Shown piece after piece: positions 1 to 9,894 of a stretch of 10,562 nt of DNA. Made by a program: the position numbers and the translations under genes. The notes beneath the pieces are model-generated. The model made no database searches. It was given only the letters and a program-made list of their open reading frames with translations, and was not told the DNA's origin. Origin of the DNA: Jatrophihabitans sp. (GTDB taxonomy: Bacteria > Actinomycetota > Actinomycetes > Mycobacteriales > Jatrophihabitantaceae); NCBI GenBank assembly GCA_025966255.1, contig JAOPVG010000057.1:1-10562 (forward strand), written 5' to 3'. The number at the start of each line of letters is the position of its first letter. The first letter of the stretch is position 1.

Positions 1-1048
1 GGAGGTCGTAGTCGACGATCTCCGGAACGGTGAGCTGGATCAGCGGCAGGAAGATCCGCTCCGTCGCCTTGCCGATCGGCCCGTCCTCCTGGGGCGGCCG
101 GCCGACCACGATCGACTGGTAGATCGCGTCCGTGCGCATCGTCAACGTCTCGACGCGCAGGAACGGGAACGGCTCGACCGGCGTGTAGAAGCCGGTGTGA
201 TCACCGAACGGACCCTCCGGCAACCGCTCCCCCGGCTCGACCCATCCCTCGAGCACGATCTGGGCCGCCGCCGGCACCTGCAGCGGCACCGACACGCAGT
301 CGACGAGGTCGACGCGGTCGCGGGCGAGGAAGCCGGCGAACAGGTATTCGTCGATGTCCCCCGGCAGCGGCGCCGACGCAGCATAGGTCACCGCGGGCGG
401 GCAGCCGAACGCGATCGCGACCGGCAGCCGCTCGCGGCGTCGCTCGGCGACGGCGGCGTGGGATGTGGAGTCCTTATGGATCTGCCAGTGCAGTGAGACC
501 GTGCGCGGATCCTGCAACTGCAGCCGATACATGCCCAGGTTTCGGGCACCCGTCTCGGGGTGCTTCGTGTGCGTCAGGCCGAGGTTGAGGAACACCCCGC
601 CGTCGTCGGGCCAGGCCTTCACGCCGGGGAGTAGGTCGACGAGATCGATGTCCGAACCGCGCAGCACGATCTCCTGGCTGGGCGCGGATTTGACGTGCCG
701 GGGCGGCACGGCGCGCAGCTGACCGATCTTGCCGAGCGCGTCCTTCAGGCCGCCGACGCCCCGCGGCAGCTCGGGTTTGAGGAGGTCCGCGATGCGGCGA
801 CCGACCTCGTCCAGCTCCGTGACGCCCAGCGCTTTCGCCATCCGGCGCTGCGTGCCGAACGCGTTCATCAGCAGCGGCAGCCGGCCCCGCGTCGGGTTCT
901 CGAACAGCAGAGCCGGGCCTTGCTCGCGCAGCACTCGCGCCACGATTCCGGTGACCTCCAGGTGTGGGTCGACGGGCACCGTGACGCGCGCCAGGTCATG
1001 GTCGTGCTCCAGGGCGACGAGGAAGTCCTGCAGATCGGCGTAGGCCAC
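1..1048 (-). CDS. ubiD: UbiD-family prenylated-FMN decarboxylase, probably menaquinone biosynthesis (partial, C-terminus outside window)
   Basis: The gene reads leftward from a GTG at 1048-1046 and runs off the window, giving 349 residues of a family usually near 480-490. The N-terminus (MAYADLQDFLVALEHDHDLA) is typical of actinobacterial UbiD proteins. Further family signatures are GMYRLQLQD at residues 172-180, in the prenyl-FMN-binding region, and PEGPFGDHTGFYTP at 277-290, which carries the acidic residues of the active site. UbiD enzymes use prenylated FMN to decarboxylate aromatic acids in the cytosol. From memory, the N-terminus resembles the SCO4490-type menaquinone (futalosine-route) decarboxylases; I could not check this. 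No in-frame ATG, GTG or TTG lies closely upstream, so the GTG start is favoured, and it would be leaderless. The family is secure; the exact substrate is not. Confidence 0.93.
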   Translation of the reverse strand, partial: MAYADLQDFLVALEHDHDLARVTVPVDPHLEVTGIVARVLREQGPALLFENPTRGRLPLLMNAFGTQRRMAKALGVTELDEVGRRIADLLKPELPRGVGGLKDALGKIGQLRAVPPRHVKSAPSQEIVLRGSDIDLVDLLPGVKAWPDDGGVFLNLGLTHTKHPETGARNLGMYRLQLQDPRTVSLHWQIHKDSTSHAAVAERRRERLPVAIAFGCPPAVTYAASAPLPGDIDEYLFAGFLARDRVDLVDCVSVPLQVPAAAQIVLEGWVEPGERLPEGPFGDHTGFYTPVEPFPFLRVETLTMRTDAIYQSIVVGRPPQEDGPIGKATERIFLPLIQLTVPEIVDYDL

Positions 1049-1060
1049 GACGTCAGTATC
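1049..1060 (-). promoter_or_regulatory. Candidate leaderless -10 element for the ubiD-family gene
   Basis: On the minus strand, GATACT (1060-1055) is followed by six bases (GACGTC, a palindrome) and then the GTG start codon at 1048. A -10 hexamer ending six bases before the start codon is the geometry of leaderless transcripts, which are common in actinobacteria. I see no good -35 match and no Shine-Dalgarno sequence. This is a motif call only. Confidence 0.4.
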
Positions 1061-1078
1061 CCGTCCACAAACCCGGGC

Positions 1079-1090
1079 TACCCTGCCGCC
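1079..1090 (+). promoter_or_regulatory. Candidate leaderless -10 element for the response regulator gene
   Basis: TACCCT (1079-1084) fits the TANNNT consensus. It is followed by exactly six bases (GCCGCC) and then the ATG at 1091, so transcription would begin at or next to the start codon. No Shine-Dalgarno sequence precedes the ATG, which agrees with a leaderless message. The -35 region is not recognisable. Confidence 0.45.
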
Positions 1091-1792
1091 ATGGTTCAAG
1101 TGCTGCTCGTCGAGGACGACGCAGCGATCCGCACTGCCCTGACCCGGGCGCTGCGCGACCACGGCCACGTCGTCTCGGCGGTCGGTTCCGGCCTGCCGGC
1201 ATTGAGCGCGGCCGTCGAGAACAAGCCCGACGTCGTGCTGCTCGACCTCGGCCTGCCCGACATCGACGGCGCGGACGTGCTGTCGATGCTGCGCGCGGTC
1301 AGCGACGTCCCCGTCATCGTCGCCACCGCTCGCGACGACGAGACGTCGATGGTGCGCCTGCTCGACCTCGGCGCCGACGACTACGTGATCAAGCCGTTCA
1401 CCGCGGCGCAGCTGACCGCCCGCATCCGGGCCGTCATGCGCCGTACCGGCAAGACCGACGAGGACCCCGTGATCACCGTCGGCGGGCTCGTGATCGACAC
1501 CCGCAGCTACGAGGTGACGGTCGACGACCGGCCCGTCGAGCTCGCCCGCAAGGAGTTCGAGCTGTTGCTCGCGCTGGCCCGTCGCGCGGGCGAAGTGGTC
1601 ACCAAACGCGACCTGCTCAGTGAGGTGTGGCAGCAGGCGTGGGGCGGCTCGGACCGCACCGTCGACGTCCACCTCTCGTGGCTGCGGCGCAAGCTCGGCG
1701 AGACGGCAGCGGCGCCGCGGTTCCTGTACAGCGTTCGCGGCGTAGGGGTACGCCTTGCTGCACCGACGGACGGCCGGGATGAGTCCACGTAG
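1091..1792 (+). CDS. OmpR/PhoB-family response regulator
   Basis: This is a 233-residue DNA-binding response regulator, the usual size for the family. The receiver domain spans about residues 1-118, with the acidic pocket E8-D9-D10, phospho-acceptor D52 (in LLDLGLPDIDG), T79 and K101 (DDYVIKPF). A winged-helix output domain follows at about 133-227, with RKEFELL, the VDVHLSWLRRKLG recognition region and the closing YSVRGVGVRL hairpin. The frame stays open far upstream, but the receiver fold starts exactly at the ATG at 1091, preceded by a TACCCT element, so the longer version is rejected. The gene lies 18 nt before the kinase gene and is divergent from the UbiD-family gene. It is expected to bind DNA when phosphorylated. 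The redox/glycosylation operon downstream is its natural candidate target, by position only. Confidence 0.95.
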   Translation: MVQVLLVEDDAAIRTALTRALRDHGHVVSAVGSGLPALSAAVENKPDVVLLDLGLPDIDGADVLSMLRAVSDVPVIVATARDDETSMVRLLDLGADDYVIKPFTAAQLTARIRAVMRRTGKTDEDPVITVGGLVIDTRSYEVTVDDRPVELARKEFELLLALARRAGEVVTKRDLLSEVWQQAWGGSDRTVDVHLSWLRRKLGETAAAPRFLYSVRGVGVRLAAPTDGRDEST

Positions 1793-1810
1793 CCCGTCGG
1801 TGGCCGAACA

Positions 1811-3166
1811 GTGAGACGCCGGATCCTGCTGCTCGTCGTCGGCATGACCGTGCTCGTCGTACTGGCCTTCGCCATTCCCCTGGCCGTCCTGATCCGGCAC
1901 AACGTCTACCAGGACGCGGTCAGGTCGCTGCAGACCGAGACGAACACGATCGCCTTCTACCTGCGCGAGAACAACATCGCGCCGACCAAGACCCAGCTCG
2001 CGGCCTATCTGAAGCAGCTGGACAAGGGCCGTAACGCGTCGGTGCAACTGCCGGACGGTTCGATCGTCGGCTCGCTACCCCCCGGCGGCCTCACCGACGC
2101 ACCGGCGGTCCCCACGGCGACGAGCGGGGCCGGCGGACCCGGGGGTCCGGGGGGTCCGGGTGAACCCAGCGCCGCTGATCGCGGCGGGCCGCCGGGGGTG
2201 ACGACCGTGTCCTGGCACAACGGCAAGCTCGCGCAACTCGTCGTGCCCGAACCGTCGACGCAGTCCCAATACGTCGTGCGGGTCTACGCCACCGACGGCA
2301 CCCTGCACTCCGGCGAGGACGGCTGGTTCCTGTTGCTCGCCGGCGGCGCCGTGGCGCTGATCGGCGTCGGCGTCGTCGCGGGCGAACTGCTCACGCGCCG
2401 CATCGTGCGGCCGCTGCTGAAGACCGCGGCCACCGCCCAGCAACTCAGCGCCGGCGACACGACGGCCCGCGCTCCGACCGACGGGCCGGGCGAGGTTGCC
2501 GACGTCGGCCACGCGCTCAATCGGCTCGCCGACCGCATCGACCAACTGATCGCGGAGGAACGCGAGACCGTCGCCGACCTCTCCCATCGGCTGCGCACGC
2601 CGTTGACCGCGCTGCGCCTCGACGCCGAGGCGCTCCAAGATCCGGCCGACGCCGAGCGCGTCGGTGCCCACGTCACGACCGTCGAGCGCATGCTCACCGC
2701 TGTCATTCACGCCGCCCGCCGTCCCCAGCGCGAAGGTCGGCTGCCGTCGTGCGATGCCACCGCCGTGATCGGTGAACGCATCGAGTTCTGGTCGGCCCTG
2801 GCCGAGGACCAGGACCGCGCTAGCACGGTCGACCTGCCCAGCTCGCCGCTCATCGTGCGGGCCGGAGCGGAGGATCTCGGCGCCGCGATCGACGCGCTGC
2901 TGGAGAACGTCATCGCGCACACTCCGGAGGGGACGGCCTTCGTCGTCCGGTTGGCGGCGACCGACACCGGCGCGCGGCTCGAGGTCGTCGACGACGGGCC
3001 TGGTCTGCCCGACGACGAGCCGGTGCGCGGACGCAGTGACCGCGGGTCCACCGGACTCGGGCTGGACATCGCCCGACGCTGCGCGGTGGCCTCCGGAGGC
3101 TCGATGACCCTGGGCACCGGACCGTCCGGCGGGGCGCACATCACGCTCGATCTGGGCGCTCCGTAG
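1811..3166 (+). CDS. HAMP-domain sensor histidine kinase
   Basis: This is a 451-residue membrane histidine kinase, partner of the regulator just upstream. TM1 spans about residues 5-28. An extracytoplasmic sensor segment covers about 30-170 and includes a Gly/Pro tract (107-129). TM2 is about 172-192, followed by a HAMP linker (about 193-246). The dimerisation box contains the phospho-acceptor H259 in SHRLRTPLTALRL. The ATPase domain shows the N box (N366 in DALLENVIAH), the G1 box (DDGPGLP, 394-400) and the G2 box (GSTGLGL, 412-418), so it looks catalytically complete. The start is a GTG 18 nt after the regulator's stop, with a weak GGTGG upstream. The sensor segment matches no domain I recognise, so the signal is unknown; neighbours suggest redox or envelope state. 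A short hairpin (TCCGT/ACGGA) overlaps the stop codon. Confidence 0.94.
   Translation: MRRRILLLVVGMTVLVVLAFAIPLAVLIRHNVYQDAVRSLQTETNTIAFYLRENNIAPTKTQLAAYLKQLDKGRNASVQLPDGSIVGSLPPGGLTDAPAVPTATSGAGGPGGPGGPGEPSAADRGGPPGVTTVSWHNGKLAQLVVPEPSTQSQYVVRVYATDGTLHSGEDGWFLLLAGGAVALIGVGVVAGELLTRRIVRPLLKTAATAQQLSAGDTTARAPTDGPGEVADVGHALNRLADRIDQLIAEERETVADLSHRLRTPLTALRLDAEALQDPADAERVGAHVTTVERMLTAVIHAARRPQREGRLPSCDATAVIGERIEFWSALAEDQDRASTVDLPSSPLIVRAGAEDLGAAIDALLENVIAHTPEGTAFVVRLAATDTGARLEVVDDGPGLPDDEPVRGRSDRGSTGLGLDIARRCAVASGGSMTLGTGPSGGAHITLDLGAP
2135..2158 (+). repeat. Tandem 9-bp repeat and inverted repeat inside the kinase sensor region
   Basis: GGGGGTCCG occurs twice in tandem (2141-2149 and 2150-2158) and encodes part of a GGPGGPGGP tract. 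GGACCC (2135-2140) and GGGTCC (2143-2148) form a six-base inverted repeat at its left edge. Gain or loss of units would keep the reading frame and change the length of the extracytoplasmic linker. Confidence 0.6.
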
Positions 3167-3279
3167 CGAACGGAAACGATCTTGGTACCGGCGTGCTGAA
3201 GCCACTCCCATCGGGGCTTGAGGAAGCCTTGACATTGTGGTGATGCCGGGCTGACCCGCGCGGGCGGATCGTCTCTGTC
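3167..3279 (+). promoter_or_regulatory. 113-bp gap: candidate promoter/operator of the seven-gene operon
   Basis: No gene is seen here. CTTGA occurs at 3217-3221 and again at 3228-3232, an 11-bp period like the half-site spacing of OmpR-family operators. The second copy overlaps TTGACA (3229-3234), a perfect -35 hexamer, but no convincing -10 lies 16-19 nt downstream. GGCTT-GAGG-AAGCC (3215-3228) can also form a small hairpin. CCCGCGCGGG (3255-3264) is a perfect 10-bp palindrome between the -35 and the ATG, though such palindromes are common in DNA this GC-rich. Read-through from the two-component genes is also possible. Confidence 0.35.
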
Positions 3280-3582
3280 ATGGACCGACGAACCGAATCC
3301 GAGCGCCTCCTTTACCGTCGGGCGACCGTCGCGGCGTCGATCGCCGCCGCCACGTCCGCCGTGCTCACCGTCGGTCTCGTCATCGGAGTGACGCAGTCGT
3401 CCGCGGCCAGCGCCAGCTCGGGCACGAGCCCGACGACGGGCACGTCGTCCACCAGCACGACCGGGTCGGGCAGTTCGACGACGACCACGCCGGCAACGTC
3501 GGCATCGTCCTCGTCGGCCAGCACCGGCGTCAGCGGCGCCAACCAGGCCGCCCAGCCCCTGGGCGGGAGCAACGGGTCATGA
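3280..3582 (+). CDS. Small membrane-anchored Ser/Thr-rich protein, possible degenerate flavinylation or glycosylation substrate
   Basis: This is a 100-residue protein I cannot assign to a family. A basic N-terminus (residues 1-14, with RR at 13-14) precedes one hydrophobic helix (about 15-37). After it, 31 of 43 residues in 40-82 are Ser or Thr, and the tail (83-100) is Gly/Ala/Asn-rich. The expected topology is N-in, with the Ser/Thr stretch outside the membrane. Residues 82-88 read TGVSGAN, close to the D-x-x-S-G-A-T site flavinylated by ApbE, but the acceptor Thr is Asn (codon AAC at 3541) and the Asp is Thr. No FMN-binding fold is present. Its stop overlaps the apbE start by ATGA, which suggests a linked role. 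It could be a shortened acceptor, a glycosylated spacer, or unrelated. The coding call rests on position, coupling and membrane-protein composition. Confidence 0.72.
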   Translation: MDRRTESERLLYRRATVAASIAAATSAVLTVGLVIGVTQSSAASASSGTSPTTGTSSTSTTGSGSSTTTTPATSASSSSASTGVSGANQAAQPLGGSNGS

Positions 3583-4517
3583 GCGCCACCTCCGTGACCA
3601 CGGCCTGGAGCTGCACCGTGCGCCTCGTCGTCGAGGACGAGCGCGCGTTGCGCCCCGCTGCCGGAGACCTGGCCGCGTTTCTCGCCCGCGTCGACTCCGC
3701 GGCCAGCCGGTTCCGGCCCGACTCGGCGCTGTCGATCGCCAACGCCCGCGCCGGTCGCCCCACGCCCGTCCCCAAGCTGCTCGTCGAGCTCGTCGACGCA
3801 GCCCTCGCCGCCGCCGCCCACACCGACGGCGCCGTCGACCCCACACTCGGCCTCGCGATGCACCGCATCGGCTACGACCGTGACATCGACGCCGTTCGGC
3901 GCGGTGACAGGACAACGGTCGAATTTCCCGCCACCGCCGCAGCCCCGCCCCGCCTCGGCGGCTGGCGCGCCGTGCGGCTGCATCGCGAGGCCGGCCTACT
4001 CACCGTGCCGGTCGGCACGGCGCTCGATCTCGGCGCGACGGCGAAGGCGTGGACGGCCGATCGGGCCGCCCATCAGCTCGCCACGCGCTACGACACCGCC
4101 GTCCTGGTCGAGCTCGGCGGCGACCTGGCCGTTGCGGGCGCGCGGCCGGACGGCTGGTGCATCCGGGTCGCCGAGCGGGAGGGCGAGGACGGCCAGCTCG
4201 TACTCGTCCGGAGCGGTGGGCTGGCCACGTCGACCACGACCGTCCGTACCTGGCGCCACGAAGGACGCGACGTCCACCACCTGGTCGATCCGCGGACCGG
4301 CCGGCCGACCGACGGGCCGTGGCGCACCGCTACGGTGGCCGCGCCGACGGCGCTAGCCGCGAACGTGGCGAGCACCGCCGCGATCGTCGAGGGGACGGAC
4401 GCGCCGGCCAGGCTGGCCGCGCAGGGGCTGGCGGCGCGGCTCGTGGCGCGGGACGGCGCCGTGACCACGACCGCCGGCTGGCCCGTCGCCGCCGATGTGG
4501 ATCGCGCCGTCGCATGA
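3579..4517 (+). CDS. apbE: ApbE-type FAD:protein FMN transferase
   Basis: This 312-residue protein carries the ApbE signatures in order: SRFRPDS (43-49), DGAVDPTLG (83-91), LDLGATAKAW with K156 (149-158), ELGGDLAVAG (178-187), GGLATSTT (213-220), HHLVDPRTGRPT (233-244) and ANVASTAAIV (261-270). ApbE enzymes use Mg2+ and FAD to attach FMN covalently to a Thr/Ser in a target protein. Two features differ from the textbook form. The C-terminal metal-site motif usually reads ADALATA, but here N262 replaces the Asp; I think this variant occurs in other actinobacterial ApbEs. There is also no signal peptide or lipobox, because the enzyme domain begins almost at residue 1, so it should act in the cytoplasm. 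GGGAG lies 9 nt before the ATG. The gene overlaps both neighbours by ATGA. Confidence 0.93.
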   Translation: MSATSVTTAWSCTVRLVVEDERALRPAAGDLAAFLARVDSAASRFRPDSALSIANARAGRPTPVPKLLVELVDAALAAAAHTDGAVDPTLGLAMHRIGYDRDIDAVRRGDRTTVEFPATAAAPPRLGGWRAVRLHREAGLLTVPVGTALDLGATAKAWTADRAAHQLATRYDTAVLVELGGDLAVAGARPDGWCIRVAEREGEDGQLVLVRSGGLATSTTTVRTWRHEGRDVHHLVDPRTGRPTDGPWRTATVAAPTALAANVASTAAIVEGTDAPARLAAQGLAARLVARDGAVTTTAGWPVAADVDRAVA

Positions 4518-5116
4518 ACGTCTGGTTCACGGCCCGGGGTGCCGGCCTGTCGGCTCTGGTCCTGCTCACCATCTCGACGGGCCTCGGTGCCCTGGTGTCG
4601 CGGCACGGTCGCGCCAGCACCCGCTACGTCATCCAGTACGTCCACCGCGCGGCGGCCGGCCTCGGCCTGGCGGTGCTGGCCCTGCATGTCGGCACCATCC
4701 TCGCCGACTCGTACGCCAAGGTCGGCTGGCGCGGCGCGCTGATCCCGTTCACCGCCGGCTACCGCCCCACCTGGGTCGCCCTCGGCTCGCTCGCTGCGTA
4801 CACCTTCGTCGGCGTGGCAGTGCTGGGTCTGGCCCGCGGCCGGATGGCGGGCTCGCCGCTGGGCGCTCGCGTCTGGCGCAGCCTGCACGGCCTGGCCTAC
4901 GTCGGTTGGGTCGGCGCGATGCTGCACGGCTTCAATTCCGGCACCGACAGCTCGGTGGGGTGGGTCCGGCTGCTCTACCTCGCCTGCCTCGTCGCGGTGC
5001 TCAGCTCGGTAGTCGTGCGGGTGGCGCAGGTCCGGCGAGCGTCCGGTGACCGCTTCGCCCATGTCGCGCCCGACCCCCACCCCGCCCAACTCACCAGCCA
5101 GGGAGCGTCCCGATGA
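4514..5116 (+). CDS. Ferric-reductase-like transmembrane di-heme cytochrome b protein
   Basis: This 200-residue membrane protein has about five helices (near 8-28, 42-62, 85-106, 121-141 and 151-170). Two helices each carry a His pair at heme-ligand spacing: H44 and H58 (14 apart) and H125 and H138 (13 apart). This is the pattern of ferric-reductase/NADPH-oxidase-type cytochrome b cores, which hold two b hemes stacked across the membrane and pass electrons outward. The cytoplasmic FAD/NAD(P)H domain of full-length ferric reductases is absent; after the last helix only about 30 polar residues remain. Electrons must therefore come from separate proteins, plausibly the NuoF-like protein and ferredoxin encoded next. 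The start is fixed by the ATGA overlap with apbE; the Shine-Dalgarno sequence is weak, so coupling seems important. The final acceptor is unknown. Confidence 0.9.
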   Translation: MNVWFTARGAGLSALVLLTISTGLGALVSRHGRASTRYVIQYVHRAAAGLGLAVLALHVGTILADSYAKVGWRGALIPFTAGYRPTWVALGSLAAYTFVGVAVLGLARGRMAGSPLGARVWRSLHGLAYVGWVGAMLHGFNSGTDSSVGWVRLLYLACLVAVLSSVVVRVAQVRRASGDRFAHVAPDPHPAQLTSQGASR

Positions 5117-6363
5117 CCGCGCTGTTGCACCGCCCGCTCCCCACTCAGGACCCTTTCGACACGTCGGCCTGGGCGATCGGCGCCCCGCGGCTGCTCGCCG
5201 GTCTGCAGCACGTCGAGCGCCTCGATGTGTCGACCCACCTGGCCACGCACGGTCCGCTGCCCGGCACCGACCTGGCCAAGCTGCTGGCCTACCTGGACGG
5301 GGGCGGGCTGGCCGGCCGCGGCGGCGCCGGTTTTCCGCTCGCCACCAAGCTGCGCACCCTGGCCGACGGCCCTCGACAGGTGATCGTCAACGGCACCGAG
5401 AGCGAGCCGGCCAGTCGCAAGGACCGGGTGCTGCTGCGCCGGACCCCGCACCTGGTGCTCGACGGCGCACTCGCGGTGGCCGCGGCGATCGGCGCCCGCG
5501 ACGTCACCGTGGCCGTCCACGACGAGCAGACCGCGGCCGCCGTCCGCGCGGCCGTGAGTGAGCGACCGGACGCGCGCCGCCTGGCCGTCAAGATCGTCCC
5601 CGGTGGCTTCGTCTCGGGCGAGGCCCGCGCCGTGGTTCGCGCGCTGCGCGGCGGCCCGGCCCGGCCCCCCGGTCGGCGCACCCCACCCACGGTCGACGGC
5701 GTGCTGCTCGCCAACGTCGAGACGTTCGCGCAGCTGGCCATCCTGCTGCGCTTGGGTCCGCACCGCTTCGCCGAAACCGGCACACCGGCCGAGGCCGGCA
5801 CCACGCTGCTGACCGTCGGCGGCGCGGTGGGACGGCCCGGGGTCGTCGAGATCCCGCTCGGTACGCCGCTCGGCATCGTCCTCGCCGCGGCGCACTCCGC
5901 GGAACCGCAGGCGATCGTCGTGGGCGGCTATCACGGCAGCTGGATCGCGCCGATTGCGCAGATCCGACTCTCCCGCGCCGGCATCGCCTCGGCCGGCGGC
6001 ACGTTCGGTGCGGGCGTGCTGCTCGTCGTCGATCACGCCACCTGCGCGCTCGGCGAGCTGGCCCGCGTCACCGGCTGGCTGGCCGGCGAGTCGGCCCGCC
6101 AGTGCGGACCGTGCGTCTTCGGCCTGCCCGCCCTGGCCGCGGACGTGCAAGCCCTCGCGATGGGGAACGCCGGCGCCGTGGCCAACGCCTTCGCCCACGC
6201 CCGCACCGTCGACGGCCGCGGCGCCTGCGCCCACCCCGACGGCGCGGCCCGCTTCGTGACGTCCGCGCTCCACCTGCTGCACGACGAAACCGACCAGCAC
6301 CTGCGCCAGGGCGGCTGCGGCCGTCCGACGCTCGGCCGCCTTCCGATCGGAGCAACTCGATGA
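5113..6363 (+). CDS. NuoF-like FMN/Fe-S oxidoreductase (complex I 51-kDa subunit-like, SLBB domain)
   Basis: This 416-residue protein resembles NuoF and RnfC. The FMN-binding loop GRGGAGFP (68-75) is intact and is followed by VNGTESEPASRKDR (92-105), SGEAR (168-172) and NVET (201-204). An SLBB-like segment follows at about 230-260 (LLTVGGAVGRPGVVEIPLG). The Fe-S region has C331-G-P-C334, then C372 and C402. NuoF normally has a C-x-x-C-x-x-C cluster plus a distant Cys; here the third local Cys is G337, so C372 and C402 may complete the site. The likely role is to take electrons from NAD(P)H or another soluble donor and pass them to the ferredoxin encoded next. No other complex I subunits are present. 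An AGGGAG-like Shine-Dalgarno sequence precedes the ATG, which overlaps the upstream stop by ATGA. The donor is inferred. Confidence 0.88.
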   Translation: MTALLHRPLPTQDPFDTSAWAIGAPRLLAGLQHVERLDVSTHLATHGPLPGTDLAKLLAYLDGGGLAGRGGAGFPLATKLRTLADGPRQVIVNGTESEPASRKDRVLLRRTPHLVLDGALAVAAAIGARDVTVAVHDEQTAAAVRAAVSERPDARRLAVKIVPGGFVSGEARAVVRALRGGPARPPGRRTPPTVDGVLLANVETFAQLAILLRLGPHRFAETGTPAEAGTTLLTVGGAVGRPGVVEIPLGTPLGIVLAAAHSAEPQAIVVGGYHGSWIAPIAQIRLSRAGIASAGGTFGAGVLLVVDHATCALGELARVTGWLAGESARQCGPCVFGLPALAADVQALAMGNAGAVANAFAHARTVDGRGACAHPDGAARFVTSALHLLHDETDQHLRQGGCGRPTLGRLPIGATR

Positions 6364-6569
6364 ACCTCGCCATTGATCGGACGCGGTGCGACGCGCACGG
6401 CCTGTGCCACGCTCTGCTTCCCGGACGAATCGACGTCGACGAGTGGGGCTTTCCGGTCCTTCGCGACGTGATCGTCCCGGCGGGCGGGCAGCCAGCCGTG
6501 CGGCGCGCGGTCGCGGCCTGTCCCTCCCTGGCGCTGTACCTCACCAACCCGCCGCCCATCACCCGATGA
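6360..6569 (+). CDS. Small ferredoxin, probable [3Fe-4S] type
   Basis: This 69-residue ferredoxin has C10, H13 and C16 in CDAHGLC and C54-P55 near the C-terminus. C-x-x-[H or other]-x-x-C ... C-P, with the second Cys missing, is the pattern of single-cluster [3Fe-4S] ferredoxins that serve as electron carriers in actinobacteria, for example next to cytochromes P450. No P450 is present here. Its place between the NuoF-like gene and the glycosyltransferases, directly coupled to the former, points to electron shuttling from the NuoF-like protein to the di-heme membrane protein. The start is the ATG at 6360 (ATGA overlap), with CGGAG seven bases upstream. The cytosolic location is inferred from the absence of a signal peptide. 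Confidence 0.9.
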   Translation: MNLAIDRTRCDAHGLCHALLPGRIDVDEWGFPVLRDVIVPAGGQPAVRRAVAACPSLALYLTNPPPITR

Positions 6570-7837
6570 CGTCGGTCAAGGGCATCCCCATGACCGCGCT
6601 CGCCGACCGCGCCGGGCCCGTGGGGCCAGCACCCACGGTCGACGTCGAGATCGTCGTCCCCGTCTTCAACGAGCAGTCCGACCTCGAGCCCAGCGTCCGG
6701 CGCCTGCACGACTTCCTGCGCACCGACTTCCCGTTCCAGGCGATCATCACGATCGCCGACAACGCCAGCACCGACGACACCTGGGCGCAGGCGACCCGAC
6801 TGGCCGACGAGCTCGAGGGCGTGCGGGCGGTCCACCTGGACGCCAAGGGTCGCGGCCGCGCCTTGAAGCACGTGTGGACGGCGAGCACCGCTCGCGTCGT
6901 CGCCTACATGGACGTCGATCTGTCCACCGATCTCGCCGCGCTGCTGCCGCTGGTCGCCCCATTGATGTCCGGACACAGCGATGTCGCGATCGGTTCGCGC
7001 CTGTCGCGCTCGTCGCGGGTCGTCCGCGGCCCGAAGCGCGAGTTCATCTCGCGCAGCTATAACCTTCTGCTCCGGACGACGCTGCACACCGGCTTCTCCG
7101 ACGCGCAGTGCGGCTTCAAAGCGATGCGCACCGAGTGCGCGCGCATGCTGCTGCCACACGTCCAGGACAAGTCCTGGTTCTTCGACACCGAGCTGCTCGT
7201 CCTCGCCGAGCGCAGCGGCATGCGTATCGCCGAGGTGCCCGTCGACTGGGTGGACGACCCGGACAGCCGCGTCGACATCGCGTCCACCGCGATGGCCGAC
7301 CTGCGCGGGATCGCCCGGGTGGGGCGGGCCCTGCTGCGCGGCGACCTGCCGTTGAGCGAGCTGCGTCAGGCCGTCGGACGCTCGGAGGTGATGGTGCCAG
7401 GCGTACCCGCGAAGCTGACGTGGCAGGCGTTGCGCTTCGGGCTGATCGGCGTGTTCAGCACGCTGGCCTACCTGGTGCTGTTCCTGATCGCGCGTCCTTC
7501 CCTGGGGGCGCAGGCGGCCAACCTCGTCGCATTGCTGATCACGGCCGTGGCCAACACCGCCGCGAACCGGCGGTTCACCTTCGGGGTGCGCGGGCCGGGC
7601 GCAGGCAAGCATCAGCTCCAGGGGCTTGTGGTCTTCGCGCTGGGTCTGGGGCTCACCAGTGGCTCGCTCTGGCTGCTGGCGCAGGCGGCCCCGCAGGCCG
7701 GGCCGACGCTGGAATTGAGTGCCCTGATCCTCGCCAACCTGATCGCTACGGCGGTGCGGTTCGTCCTGCTGCGCGAGTGGGTGTTCGGCCGTCGCGGCCT
7801 GGCTGTTTGCGACCACACGAAGGTACCGACGCCATGA
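6566..7837 (+). CDS. GT2 glycosyltransferase fused to GtrA-like membrane domain (polyprenyl-phosphate sugar synthase type)
   Basis: This 423-residue protein has two parts. The cytoplasmic GT-A domain (about 25-260) resembles dolichol-phosphate mannose synthase, with VPVFNEQ (31-37), DNASTDDT (65-72), the D116-V-D118 metal motif, SDAQCGFKAMR (178-188) and FFDTELL (205-211). A four-helix GtrA-like domain follows (about 287-408), with ANRRFTF (333-339) and a closing RFVLLREWVF (398-407). The family loads a sugar from a nucleotide donor onto polyprenyl phosphate. GtrA proteins are linked to moving that lipid-sugar across the membrane. The product probably feeds the GT39 enzyme encoded next, which is ATGA-coupled. 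Two starts are possible. ATG 6566 continues the ATGA pattern but lacks a Shine-Dalgarno sequence; ATG 6590 has AAGGG at good spacing and removes eight residues. The sugar is not predictable. Confidence 0.92.
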   Translation: MTSVKGIPMTALADRAGPVGPAPTVDVEIVVPVFNEQSDLEPSVRRLHDFLRTDFPFQAIITIADNASTDDTWAQATRLADELEGVRAVHLDAKGRGRALKHVWTASTARVVAYMDVDLSTDLAALLPLVAPLMSGHSDVAIGSRLSRSSRVVRGPKREFISRSYNLLLRTTLHTGFSDAQCGFKAMRTECARMLLPHVQDKSWFFDTELLVLAERSGMRIAEVPVDWVDDPDSRVDIASTAMADLRGIARVGRALLRGDLPLSELRQAVGRSEVMVPGVPAKLTWQALRFGLIGVFSTLAYLVLFLIARPSLGAQAANLVALLITAVANTAANRRFTFGVRGPGAGKHQLQGLVVFALGLGLTSGSLWLLAQAAPQAGPTLELSALILANLIATAVRFVLLREWVFGRRGLAVCDHTKVPTP

Positions 7838-9894
7838 GCAACTCGCTGACCACGAACTCGACCACCGAGCCCGCGATCGGCGGCGTTGGCGCCGACGGGT
7901 CCGATACCCCGCCCGAGTCACCCGACAACCCACCAACCAAGATGACGAAGTGGCGGGATCGGACCCCGCTCGCCGGCCTGCTGCTCGGCACCGCGCTGCT
8001 GTACCTGATCGGGCTGTCCGCATCCGGCTGGGCCAACCAGTACTACTCGGCCGCGGCGCAGGCCGGCAGTCAGAGCTGGAAGTCGTTCCTGTTCGGGTCA
8101 CTCGATTCGTCGAACTTCATCACCGTCGACAAGCCGCCCGCATCGCTGTGGGTCATGGACATCTCGGTGAAGATCTTCGGCGCCAACTCGTGGGCGATCC
8201 TGGTGCCGCAGGCCGTCGAGGGCGTGGCTGCGGTCGCAGTGCTCTACGCGGCGGTGCGACGGGTCAGCGGCCCCACCGCCGGCCTGCTCGCCGGCGCAGC
8301 GCTGGCCACGACGCCGATCGCCACGTTGATGTTCCGGTTCAACAATCCGGACGCTCTGCTCGTCCTGCTCATGACCGCCGCGGCCTACGCGACGGTGCGC
8401 GCAATTGAAGCAGCGCGCCCGCGGTGGCTGATGCTGGCCGGCGCGCTCATCGGCTTCGCGTTCCTCGCCAAGATGTTGCAGGGCCTACTCGTGCTGCCGG
8501 CCTTCGCTATCGCTTATCTCGTAGCGGCGCCCACCGGATTGCGCCGGCGCATCCTGCACGTCCTGGCCGCGGGCGCCGCGATGGTGGTGGCGGCCGGCTG
8601 GTGGGTGGCGCTCGTCCAACTCTGGCCGGCCGGGTCGCGTCCTTATATCGGCGGCTCGACCAACAACAGCGTGCTGGACCTCATCTTCGGCTATAACGGC
8701 TTCGGTCGGCTCACCGGCGGGGACAACAACGGCAGCGTCGGCGGACCGGGCGGCGGCACCGGTGGCGGCTTCTCCTCCGGCTCCACCGGGCTGTTGCGTC
8801 TGTTCGGCACCGACATGGGTTCGCAGATCAGTTGGCTGTTGCCAACCGCGCTGGTCGCCATCGTCGCGCTGGCTTGGCGCACGTGGGGACGGTCGCGCAC
8901 CGATGCGCTTCGCGCCAGCGTGATCGTGTGGGGCGGCTGGTTGATCGTCACCGGCCTGCTGTTCAGTTTCGCGAGCGGCATCATCCACCCCTATTACACG
9001 GTGGCGCTCGCACCGGCGATTGCCGCGCTGGTCGGGATCGGCGTGGCCGAGATGTGGCGGGCGCGGTCGAGCGCCGTGGCGCGGTCGACGCTCGCCGCGC
9101 TCGTGGCGGTCGGCGCGCTGTGGACGTACGTCCTGCTGGGCCGCGTGTCGTGGCACCCGGAGCTGCGGTGGATCGTGCTGCTCACCGGTGGTCTGGCGAC
9201 GGTCGGGATCATCGTCGGCCGCCGGGTGAAGGCGGTGATCGTGGCGCCGCTCGTCGTCGTGACGCTGCTCATCGCTCCGCTCGCCTACTCGATCCAGACG
9301 GCGGCGAGCCCGCACGCCGGTGCGATACCGACAGCCGGACCGGCGACCGGCCGGGGCTTCGGCTTTGGTGGTCGGCCGGGCGGAGCTCCGGGCGGCGGCG
9401 CCGGACTGGGCGGACGTGGTGGCCTGGGCGGCGGAACACCGCCGGCGGGCGCAGCCGGACCAGGCGGTCAAGCTGTCGTGCCGGGACAGGCGGGCGCTCG
9501 ACACTTCGGCGGCGGCGGCGGCGCGCGGGGTGGACTCGGCGGCGGGGCAACGGTGAGCTCCGCGTTGAGCGCGGCGCTGAAGACCAACGCGTCGCGCTAC
9601 ACCTGGGTCGCGGCAACCACCGGTGACAACAGTGCGGCGTCCCTGGAGCTCGCGACCGGTCAGGCGGTCATGTCGCTCGGCGGGTACAACGGCACTGATC
9701 CGGCGATCACGGTGTCCGCGTTCCAGCAGCTGGTCGCCGCGGGGCAGGTGCACTACTACGTGGCCGACCCGCAGGGCTTCATCGGATCGACCGCCGCGAA
9801 CACGTCGACCGCGTACGCGATCCAGCAGTGGGTGACGAACAACTTCACCGCCACCACCATCGGCGGCACGACCGTCTACGACCTGACGAAATAG
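7834..9894 (+). CDS. GT39/YkcB-like polytopic membrane glycosyltransferase with Gly-rich linker
   Basis: This is a 686-residue GT-C-type glycosyltransferase of the PMT/ArnT superfamily. A polar N-terminal tail (1-42) precedes the first helix. The first extracytoplasmic loop carries VDKPPASLWV (98-107), the D-K-P-P region typical of this group, with RFNNPDALL (168-176) further on. About ten or more helices fill residues 45-490, including FASGIIHPYYTVALAPA (379-395). Two Gly-rich segments stand out: 295-316 in a loop and about 502-571 after the last helix. The C-terminal part (572-686) is a soluble, probably extracytoplasmic domain (TWVAATTGDNSAASLELATG, then a VHYYVADP strand). Such enzymes move a sugar from a polyprenyl-phosphate donor to an acceptor outside the membrane. 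GAAGG lies about 10 nt before the ATG, and the start overlaps the previous gene by ATGA. The acceptor is unknown; exported protein or envelope glycan are both possible. Confidence 0.92.
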   Translation: MSNSLTTNSTTEPAIGGVGADGSDTPPESPDNPPTKMTKWRDRTPLAGLLLGTALLYLIGLSASGWANQYYSAAAQAGSQSWKSFLFGSLDSSNFITVDKPPASLWVMDISVKIFGANSWAILVPQAVEGVAAVAVLYAAVRRVSGPTAGLLAGAALATTPIATLMFRFNNPDALLVLLMTAAAYATVRAIEAARPRWLMLAGALIGFAFLAKMLQGLLVLPAFAIAYLVAAPTGLRRRILHVLAAGAAMVVAAGWWVALVQLWPAGSRPYIGGSTNNSVLDLIFGYNGFGRLTGGDNNGSVGGPGGGTGGGFSSGSTGLLRLFGTDMGSQISWLLPTALVAIVALAWRTWGRSRTDALRASVIVWGGWLIVTGLLFSFASGIIHPYYTVALAPAIAALVGIGVAEMWRARSSAVARSTLAALVAVGALWTYVLLGRVSWHPELRWIVLLTGGLATVGIIVGRRVKAVIVAPLVVVTLLIAPLAYSIQTAASPHAGAIPTAGPATGRGFGFGGRPGGAPGGGAGLGGRGGLGGGTPPAGAAGPGGQAVVPGQAGARHFGGGGGARGGLGGGATVSSALSAALKTNASRYTWVAATTGDNSAASLELATGQAVMSLGGYNGTDPAITVSAFQQLVAAGQVHYYVADPQGFIGSTAANTSTAYAIQQWVTNNFTATTIGGTTVYDLTK

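Follow-up and report, generated by a model that had tools for sequence, protein, structure and literature searches.

A conserved C-terminal tip on small membrane-anchored proteins encoded beside apbE in Actinomycetota, a candidate natural flavin tag joined in one clade to a glycosylation module

In the window, a stretch of 10,562 nucleotides of a Jatrophihabitans sp. genome, a run of seven genes begins with one for a small protein (SP) that ends in a C-terminal motif conserved among SPs encoded 5' of apbE in related operons. Sequence comparisons make it fairly probable that SP carries covalent FMN in an electron-export chain, with the flavin on its C-terminal Ser and without a folded domain. 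The redox part of the run (SP, ApbE, a four-His membrane protein termed FRTM, a NuoF-like protein and a ferredoxin) is an operon widespread among actinobacteria. GT2-GtrA and a YkcB-like GT-C, the sugar part, normally lie elsewhere in the genome, and the two parts are joined in one clade (Table 1).

Table 1. Features of the window, with the evidence for each assignment
Feature	Position	Strand	Basis
OmpR-type response regulator	1091..1792	+	PF00072, PF00486
Sensor histidine kinase paired with that regulator	1811..3166	+	PF00672, PF00512, PF02518
SP, 100 aa, proposed covalent-FMN carrier	3280..3582	+	No Pfam/NCBIfam match; same architecture 5' of apbE in relatives
SP C-terminus GGSNGS, proposed natural flavin tag, putative acceptor Ser100	3562..3579	+	Tip motif conservation; shuffle tests; codon control
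ApbE-type FAD:protein FMN transferase, no evident export signal	3579..4517	+	PF02424 (2.1e-46); PDB matches 5mgy, 1vrm
FRTM, four-His membrane protein, cytochrome-like	4514..5116	+	Ferric-reductase/MsrQ-like by fold rank only
NuoF-like NADH dehydrogenase, FMN and Fe-S domains	5113..6363	+	PF01512 (5.7e-34), PF10589 (4e-11)
Single-cluster ferredoxin	6360..6569	+	PF13459 (2.9e-10)
GT2-GtrA, lipid-linked sugar synthase fused to flippase-like domain	6566..7837	+	PF00535, PF04138
GT-C glycosyltransferase with YkcB_C domain	7834..9894	+	PF13231, PF24878

The identities that the first-pass annotation had given to the seven genes are supported by Pfam and NCBIfam profile searches and, for the membrane protein, by four His residues (44, 58, 125 and 138) invariant in 44 aligned sequences, namely that of the window and 43 of 120 listed homologues. 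FRTM of the window has no Pfam match, and a PDB sequence search with the FRTM profile returned none. PF01794 matches only one of 44 homologues, so Pfam-based surveys would miss most FRTM proteins. The AlphaFold2 model of FRTM (pLDDT 81) gave STEAP2, NOX5 and STEAP1 as top Foldseek ranks, at non-significant E-values of 0.08-0.23. By these ranks and the four invariant His, FRTM may work like, rather than be, a ferric-reductase/MsrQ-type protein, and its four His probably correspond to two hemes. The NuoF-like protein scored 147.7 bits (3.2e-43) against the NCBIfam equivalog TIGR01959, under the cut-off of 558.65 for complex I subunit NuoF proper.

The redox genes resemble the MsrQ-like flavinylation clusters described in the cited passages of PMC8238504, also from Actinobacteria, with ApbE, a two-heme-type membrane protein and a NuoF-like NADH module. 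Subsets of those clusters encode a NAD-binding module or a NuoF-like PF10589 protein (31 clusters for the latter), and an FMN-binding-domain gene is typical of them, albeit not obligatory. The window harbours the PF02424 gene and both NuoF-like domains of this system, but where the FMN-binding-domain gene is typically found it has a domain-free stalk with the proposed terminal tag. A scan of nine window proteins and of four SPs from relatives did not detect the FMN-binding domain PF04205. The strict motif [DEQ]..[ST]GAT was likewise absent from the window and 159 NuoF loci, save for one improbable low-complexity match in L065; as this motif search was confined to a strict pattern, to ORFs of at least 80 aa and to loci other than the replication ones, with an arginine filter, a divergent FMN_bind domain could escape it.

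SP is composed of a basic N-terminus, one membrane segment and an S/T-rich tail. In most of 44 SPs, basic residues flank the membrane segment on its N-terminal side, with none or acidic ones after it. We collected SPs with a filter based on the membrane segment, tail composition and low Arg content, in which the tip was not a criterion. The discovery count comprises the window and 44 SPs from 51 loci, the doubtful ORF of L187 being kept as a miss; L161, a duplicate of L036, and L159, L162 and L206, with apbE at the contig end, had been set aside beforehand. The broad tip pattern was fixed after viewing this set, and the replication set, in which 17 of 40 loci had no apbE match and were unscored, is the independent test. 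By the filter, no SP was found upstream of apbE in nine of 74 apbE loci. SPs are missing without explanation in L184, L191, L195, L196, L260 and L269; L192 has two SPs 3' of the ferredoxin gene and none upstream by the filter, the SP of L116 is cut by the contig end, and in L172 the sequence STGASG sits inside a longer tail.

The pattern [ST]-x-[GA]-S forms the extreme C-terminus of 51 of the 66 SPs (35/45 in the discovery set, 16/21 in the replication set), as against 142 of 6990 internal positions (2.0%). With the 60 C-terminal residues of the replication SPs shuffled 2000 times, a mean of 0.63 and a maximum of 4 matches were obtained, compared with the 16 observed. The shuffles and the internal rate thus reject tail composition bias as the origin of the tip. 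The tip is conserved and the tail is not, with at least one tip-matching member under each of the 28 family labels examined (Kribbellaceae, Nocardioidaceae and 26 numbered families, among which those two may recur). The exact tip is absent from 15 of the 66 SPs, and even a relaxed tip from seven, four of which come from a single family whose tail is different and contains Cys.

Could the tip be dictated by the DNA at the start of apbE? At position -4 of the 51 matching tips, AGY, TCN and ACN codons occur 17 times each, and in 37 tips the last 18 nt are free of SD-like 4-mers, which indicates selection on the protein and not on the DNA. Part of the nucleotide pattern is shared with the apbE start codon, since the SP stop could overlap that start in 44 of 65 SPs and the Ser at -1 is coded by TCA or TCG in 37 of the 51 tips. 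The other 14 end in TCC, AGC or AGT, with which no ATG/GTG overlap is possible. When the stop cannot overlap the apbE start, the exact tip is still present in 14 of 21 SPs, and in four of the remaining seven TGAS, TGGS or SGAS lies one or two residues short of the end. On the strength of codon use, the SD count and these 14 SPs, we reject the view that the apbE start codon or the ribosome-binding site gives rise to the tip.

The tip goes with apbE. It is present in 50 of 134 ORFs with a membrane segment and a low-complexity tail in apbE operons, in three of 175 elsewhere in the same loci and in three of 143 in operons with no detected apbE (Fisher p ~1e-17 and ~3e-15, computed without kinship correction). 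The ApbE consensus reported in PMC12052999 is D-x-x-[ST]-G-A-[ST]; seven residues suffice, preferably at a terminus, and replacement of the Asp by Ala has a minor effect. Three SPs (L173, L174 and L282) harbour the full consensus, some have the textbook endings DASTGAS or DATTGAS, and the strict [ST]GA[ST] form is within the last nine residues of eight of the 66. At L116, which holds a second apbE of the same operon type in the genome of the window, a frame ending in STGASG and a stop lies just 5' of apbE. In contrast, the window tip SNGS has N for G, G for A and no Asp. SP tips are like the engineered flavin-tag of PMC12052999 in being short terminal peptides with no flavin-binding domain, but they are natural, are borne by a membrane-anchored low-complexity stalk, and often replace the Gly of the motif by N, H, S or R and its Ala by Gly.

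ApbE of the window possesses the conserved family motifs DLG..AKA, GGD and HH..DP, which we take to be catalytic. The Asp that precedes STA in its best PDB relative, presumably a Mg ligand, is replaced by Asn, and thus activity is not assured. Among 76 ApbE rows of this operon type, the site is occupied by Asn in 59, Glu in 16 and Trp in one. Enzymes with Glu go with Ala as the third tip residue in 10 of 13 cases, and those with Asn go with Gly in 40 of 52, a covariation partly due to shared descent.

The tip might instead signal export, processing or binding of a C-terminal partner, with ApbE flavinylating another protein or being no transferase at all. The non-textbook SNGS is in keeping with this, as is a classical FMN_bind protein encoded in the same genome (contig C482, locus L117) beside another ApbE that retains the Asp. 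However, that protein belongs to a different apbE cluster and has its own ApbE, and the tip is found almost only with apbE, varies together with the ApbE subtype and reads as textbook TGAS in some SPs and in the second copy of the genome; we regard such another role as unlikely.

If SP is an FMN carrier, the first five genes would encode a transmembrane electron-export chain in which electrons would pass from NADH through the NuoF-like protein and the ferredoxin to the four-His cytochrome, and FRTM would hand them across the membrane to the flavin on the stalk. ApbE would attach FMN to the C-terminal serine, and the membrane segment and long S/T-rich tail would act as a flexible stalk that parallels, in nature, the engineered flavin-tag. 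As ApbE has no export signal, the tag would probably be loaded in the cytosol before export of the tail. This counts against the FMN-carrier reading, given that a flavinylated tail must then be exported, as does the derivation of the predicted hemes and fold from four His and from fold matches that fall short of significance. Genes lacking a signal peptide or lipidation site were excluded from the extracytosolic set of PMC8238504; the window ApbE is devoid of an evident signal.

The first-pass annotation had proposed that the seven genes are stably expressed together and that redox and sugar modules serve one envelope function. The six ATGA overlaps of 4 nt on which it relied, at 3579-3582, 4514-4517, 5113-5116, 6360-6363, 6566-6569 and 7834-7837, are borne out by the ORF table and largely kept in relatives. 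Accepting ATG, GTG or TTG starts, we scored 4-nt overlaps in the seven other loci with the joined order and found them between apbE and the FRTM gene in 6/7, FRTM and NuoF 7/7, NuoF and ferredoxin 7/7, ferredoxin and GT2 5/7, and GT2 and GT-C 7/7. Since they recur in other loci, the overlaps of the window are not due to chance, but the start of the GT2 gene is uncertain because of a second in-frame ATG at 6591. They may reflect ordinary compaction of actinobacterial operons, without functional message, since redox operons of other families that have no linked sugar genes are also rich in them (22/30, 26/30 and 24/31 at the first three of these junctions). Gene order and overlaps nevertheless persist over wide divergence, so that selection probably maintains joint translation, and we hold mere compaction to be rather unlikely. 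The strong promoter before 6566 that would have told against a single unit was not found: a scan limited to some promoter types detected neither promoter-like nor terminator-like sites there. Rfam and promoter/terminator scans of the junctions returned nothing.

Stable joint expression is plausible within the joined clade, which comprises eight of 24 genomes of the family of the window, in five genera. Their NuoF-like proteins are 58-76% identical to that of the window, and the clade is monophyletic (96/95) in a tree of 36 chosen NuoF rows. The window GT-C is closer to the second (63-76% identity) than to the first (52-58%) of the tandem GT-Cs found in six relatives. As a general rule the idea of one process or one system is not supported, and we discard a general redox-glycosylation system, since homologous loci often keep the modules apart. 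In five genomes of the sister genus, both modules are present at different places, ~200 kb apart in the single contig of G310; for G305, where the end of the redox contig cuts the NuoF gene, separation is deduced from the regulator pair that the sugar locus has of its own. Outside the family, 175 of 177 redox loci are devoid of sugar genes in the flanks retrieved and two have them adjacent, with the caveats that some genomes may be counted twice and several loci are cut by contig ends. L192 and L195 show separate juxtapositions of the modules. Conversely, for 12 GT-C loci retrieved from further genomes outside the family, a set without the two known cases of adjacency, the stretches contain no redox genes, and in G276 redox and sugar genes are ~18 kb apart.

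The regulator pair upstream of the run (1091-3166), omitted from the unit of the first-pass annotation, accompanies the redox genes in some relatives. Response regulators 59-66% identical to that of the window adjoin redox genes in L039, L042, L126 and L200, with the kinase adjacent too, and the linked pair probably controls the operon. Sugar loci outside the family also often follow a regulator pair of their own, with a response regulator upstream in eight of the 12 and a kinase in seven (37-42% and 28-33% identical, respectively, to those of the window). GT2-GT-C of G317 is preceded, with no redox genes in between, by a kinase that shares 48% identity with that of the window. These arrangements favour a joining that is regulatory only, the sugar module having been captured so that envelope decoration obeys the same two-component signal, with no molecule shared; we give this close to an even chance; it leaves unexplained a translational coupling by 4-nt overlaps that goes beyond a shared promoter.

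The sugar genes form a multi-component transmembrane glycosylation set, with a GT-A synthase, a GtrA flippase and a PMT_2 GT-C, like Bacillus subtilis YkcBC in the cited passages of PMC8035078. Unlike in YkcBC, GtrA is fused to GT2 and translationally joined to a redox operon in the window; the YkcB_C domain was also found in B. subtilis, used as a control. Behind the redox genes of the joined clade, this three-component module would share their translation and probably their regulation, and may glycosylate some acceptor in the envelope, with the S/T-rich stalk as one candidate. The first-pass annotation had envisaged a glycosylated surface redox protein, and among the products of the operon there is indeed a surface protein that is rich in S/T and has a tip resembling a flavin-tag. 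That redox and sugar genes make up one envelope system, for instance with glycosylation of the stalk being needed for function, would agree with the joining over five genera, the overlaps at both sugar junctions, the separate juxtapositions in L192 and L195, and S/T contents of 48-65% in the SP tails of six joined loci. Yet the tails reach 42-60% in Kribbella, which has no linked sugar genes, and the separations outside the family, in redox and GT-C loci alike, make such a system improbable.

ApbE substrates named in the cited passages of the literature carry the motif within a folded domain or protein. In Flavodoxin_4 and FMN_red proteins, the flavinylation site is on an insertion or on a C-terminal extension without structure (PMC11334425, as cited); SP is similar in that its putative ApbE site lies outside a classical FMN-binding domain, as does the C-terminal, unstructured one of FMN_red, but those proteins have a folded flavin-binding domain and none is detectable in SP. 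Titles and abstract openings of the papers found in literature searches mention neither a terminal or disordered ApbE acceptor nor ApbE with glycosyltransferases, although the supplements of PMC8238504 may list such clusters. The probable arrangement, in which a flavin sits at the outermost end of a floppy protein on the cell surface, is a type of carrier for which no description was found. The fullest picture, of domain-free covalent flavoproteins widespread in Actinomycetota, their flavin swinging on a disordered membrane stalk, loaded in the cytosol by co-evolved leaderless ApbE and then exported, with a stalk also glycosylated in one clade to give a glycosylated flavin arm, is a long shot.

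If SP is indeed an FMN carrier, a domain-free terminal tag would supply the substrate for some of the orphan apbE genes reported without a recognised one (PMC8238504, in the cited passages). Nature would then use the flavin-tagging trick built by protein engineers, and extracytoplasmic electron transfer would gain a new geometry, that of a mobile flavin arm. Capture of a glycosylation module in one clade raises the question of whether flavin arms are glycosylated.

The first-pass annotation had taken the six consecutive 4-nt ATGA overlaps of this gene run as uniting a redox and a glycosylation module and as suggesting one envelope function, and all six overlaps read as claimed (see table). Domain scans identified an ApbE, a NuoF-like protein, a single-cluster ferredoxin, a GT2-GtrA protein and a PMT_2/YkcB_C GT-C protein, with no Pfam match for the membrane protein and no match for the small protein encoded by the first gene. 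The window is one entire contig of a 79%-complete genome.

Features of the gene run and of related loci
Feature	Sequence	Position	Remark
Response regulator and kinase	window	1091-3166	directly upstream of the run
Small protein	window	3280-3582	proposed covalent-FMN carrier
ApbE	window	3579-4517	FAD:protein FMN transferase family
Four-His membrane protein	window	4514-5116	
ATGA overlaps	window	3579-3582, 4514-4517, 5113-5116, 6360-6363, 6566-6569, 7834-7837	
GT2, second possible start	window	6591	
GT-C, glycine-rich low-complexity stretch	window	9340-9560	just ahead of YkcB_C domain
Second apbE-membrane protein-NuoF-ferredoxin operon	L116 (G000:C470)	1-3610	window's genome
Further apbE cluster	L117 (G000:C482)	895-1368	window's genome; classical FMN_bind protein with SGATYTS
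Tip-motif small proteins	L192 (oriented)	3619-4298	

Relatives of the small protein share its build (basic N-terminus, single hydrophobic segment, low-complexity tail) and are usually encoded directly before apbE. Their tails are variable and their ends recurrent (GGSNGS, GGSHGS, AGSHGS, QSNGS, TSGGS, HATTGGS, VDASTGAS). In the discovery set of 45 (that of the window and 44 from 51 loci), 27 proteins have [ST]G[AGS][ST] or S[NH][GAS]S as their last four residues; shuffling the 60 C-terminal residues 2,000 times gave a mean of 0.76 and a maximum of 6. A broader motif, [ST]-x-[GA]-S, ends 35. The broader motif also ends 16 of 21 small proteins from 23 apbE loci fetched afterwards (shuffle mean 0.63, maximum 4). 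Overall, it occurs at 51/66 ends versus 142/6990 internal positions, with at least one tip match under each of 28 family labels. The available text of PMC12052999 gives D-x-x-[ST]-G-A-[ST] as the ApbE motif, its final residue carrying the FMN; a stretch of seven residues is enough, and termini are best. The full consensus is present in three small proteins, and [ST]GA[ST] lies inside the last nine residues of eight. In the second operon copy of the window's genome, a frame ending in HTSTGASG, truncated by the contig start, directly precedes apbE. Tip-motif small proteins are placed after the ferredoxin in L192, where two occur in tandem (QSGGS and HSGGS), and in L206. In four of the seven f92 family loci (L245, L251, L252, L254), the tip motif is replaced by a terminal two-Cys stretch, C-x-x-x-PSG-x-x-x-C, in the small protein.

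To gauge specificity, 198 NuoF loci were scanned for ORFs that combine a membrane segment with a low-complexity tail. The end motif was found in 50/134 such ORFs within apbE operons (48/77 apbE loci), 3/175 elsewhere in apbE loci, 3/143 in operons without detected apbE and 2/389 elsewhere in those loci; Fisher tests were run on these counts, with kinship among loci left uncorrected. Conservation of the tip is at the protein level: among its 51 matches, position -4 is encoded by AGY, TCN and ACN 17 times each, 14 terminal codons preclude an ATG/GTG overlap, and in 37 the last 18 nt lack an SD-like 4-mer. Canonical FMN-binding-domain motifs, sought with a strict pattern, were not found in the window and gave a single improbable match (L065) across 159 NuoF loci. 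The clear match of that scan, in L117, is a real FMN_bind protein (PF04205, 4.5e-11). The Streptomyces loci among L040-L115 have no apbE by tblastn; they encode a membrane protein with a long low-complexity tail, in many cases ending in GEPWN-x-PSGG.

The ApbE retains the main family motifs. No row has a strongly hydrophobic N-terminus (none above 1.6 by a crude measure; the N-termini of L204, L206 and C482 are unreliable). The residue before STA in ApbE of this operon type is Asn in 59, Glu in 16 and Trp in one of 76 rows; it is Asp in the best PDB relative and in the ApbE adjoining the FMN_bind gene of L117. The missing Asp is a warning about predicted activity, and it marks a distinct ApbE subtype. 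The third tip residue tracks ApbE type, being Ala in 10/13 small proteins with Glu-type and Gly in 40/52 with Asn-type enzymes (L132, with an SGGS tip, was scored as Ala under the counting rule). Part of this covariation is due to shared descent.

The NuoF-like protein shares its FMN and Fe-S domains with complex I NuoF but scores far under the NuoF cut-off. In the membrane protein, His44, His58, His125 and His138 are invariant among 44 aligned sequences, which would fit two hemes; its predicted model (pLDDT 81) ranks STEAP2, NOX5 and STEAP1 on top, with non-significant E-values. By analogy with MsrQ-like systems, as presented in the available part of PMC8238504, electrons would pass from NADH through the NuoF-like protein, ferredoxin and the membrane protein to the stalk flavin. 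In 31/44 small proteins an RR pair stands immediately ahead of the membrane segment or at its beginning, which would be consistent with a tail loaded first and then exported by Tat, but Arg is frequent in these genomes.

The two modules are joined in part of the family. A NuoF-like match (E<=1e-40) was found in 16 of its 24 genomes, and eight (window and L158-L164; genera g1, g117, g119, g122 and g124) have the order NuoF-ferredoxin-GT2-GT-C preceded by ApbE and the membrane protein, flanked by UbiD and CcsA homologues wherever the contig extends far enough. In five g120 genomes both modules are present at different places. A single joining event is the simplest reading, because all eight joined loci form a single clade (96/95) in a NuoF tree built from 36 selected rows, adjoining that of g120 (97/95 together). 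Two tandem GT-C genes are present in six of the seven joined relatives, whereas the window has one (7834-9894), nearer their second (63-76% identity vs 52-58% to the first). L159, from the same genus, also has a single GT-C, only ~55% identical to the window's, and its GT2 match spans just residues 21-268 of the window's GT2-GtrA. Outside the family, sugar genes adjoin 2/177 fetched redox loci (L192 and L195; 0/79 for L037-L115, 0/18 for L118-L135, 2/40 and 0/40), a rough fraction because Streptomyces make up many loci; a 28% reverse-strand GT2-like match in L250 was left out. G276 has a GT-C gene ~18 kb away from its NuoF gene, beyond the fetched flank. YkcB_C matches occur in 116/296 class genomes, and none of 12 sugar loci fetched outside the family, a set without the two known adjacent cases, has redox genes within its stretch.

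A response regulator lies upstream in 8/12 of these sugar loci, with 37-42% identity to the window's; those adjoining redox genes in L039, L042, L126 and L200 reach 59-66%, and the joined operon is thus placed behind the redox-type regulator. Regulatory capture of the sugar module is a tentative reading, with a chance approaching even. In L226 (G317:C11), a kinase (48% identical to the window's) is followed by a beta-lactamase-family protein (PF13354), GT2 and GT-C, and redox genes are absent from this interval. The sugar genes appear to form a multi-component glycosylation system; for the related YkcBC, the acceptor is not known in the available text of PMC8035078. The S/T-rich stalk of the small protein would be a candidate acceptor in the joined clade, but similar stalks are present in loci lacking linked sugar genes; we consider glycosylation of the stalk unlikely.

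The accessible portions of PMC8238504 and PMC11334425 list as flavinylated FMN-binding-domain proteins, DUF2271, DUF3570, Flavodoxin_4, FMN_red and some reductases, and note orphan apbE genes; our literature searches, in sources partly available, found no domain-free terminal acceptor. We rate the run as a flavinylation-type electron-export system of known kind, with a new type of putative flavin carrier.
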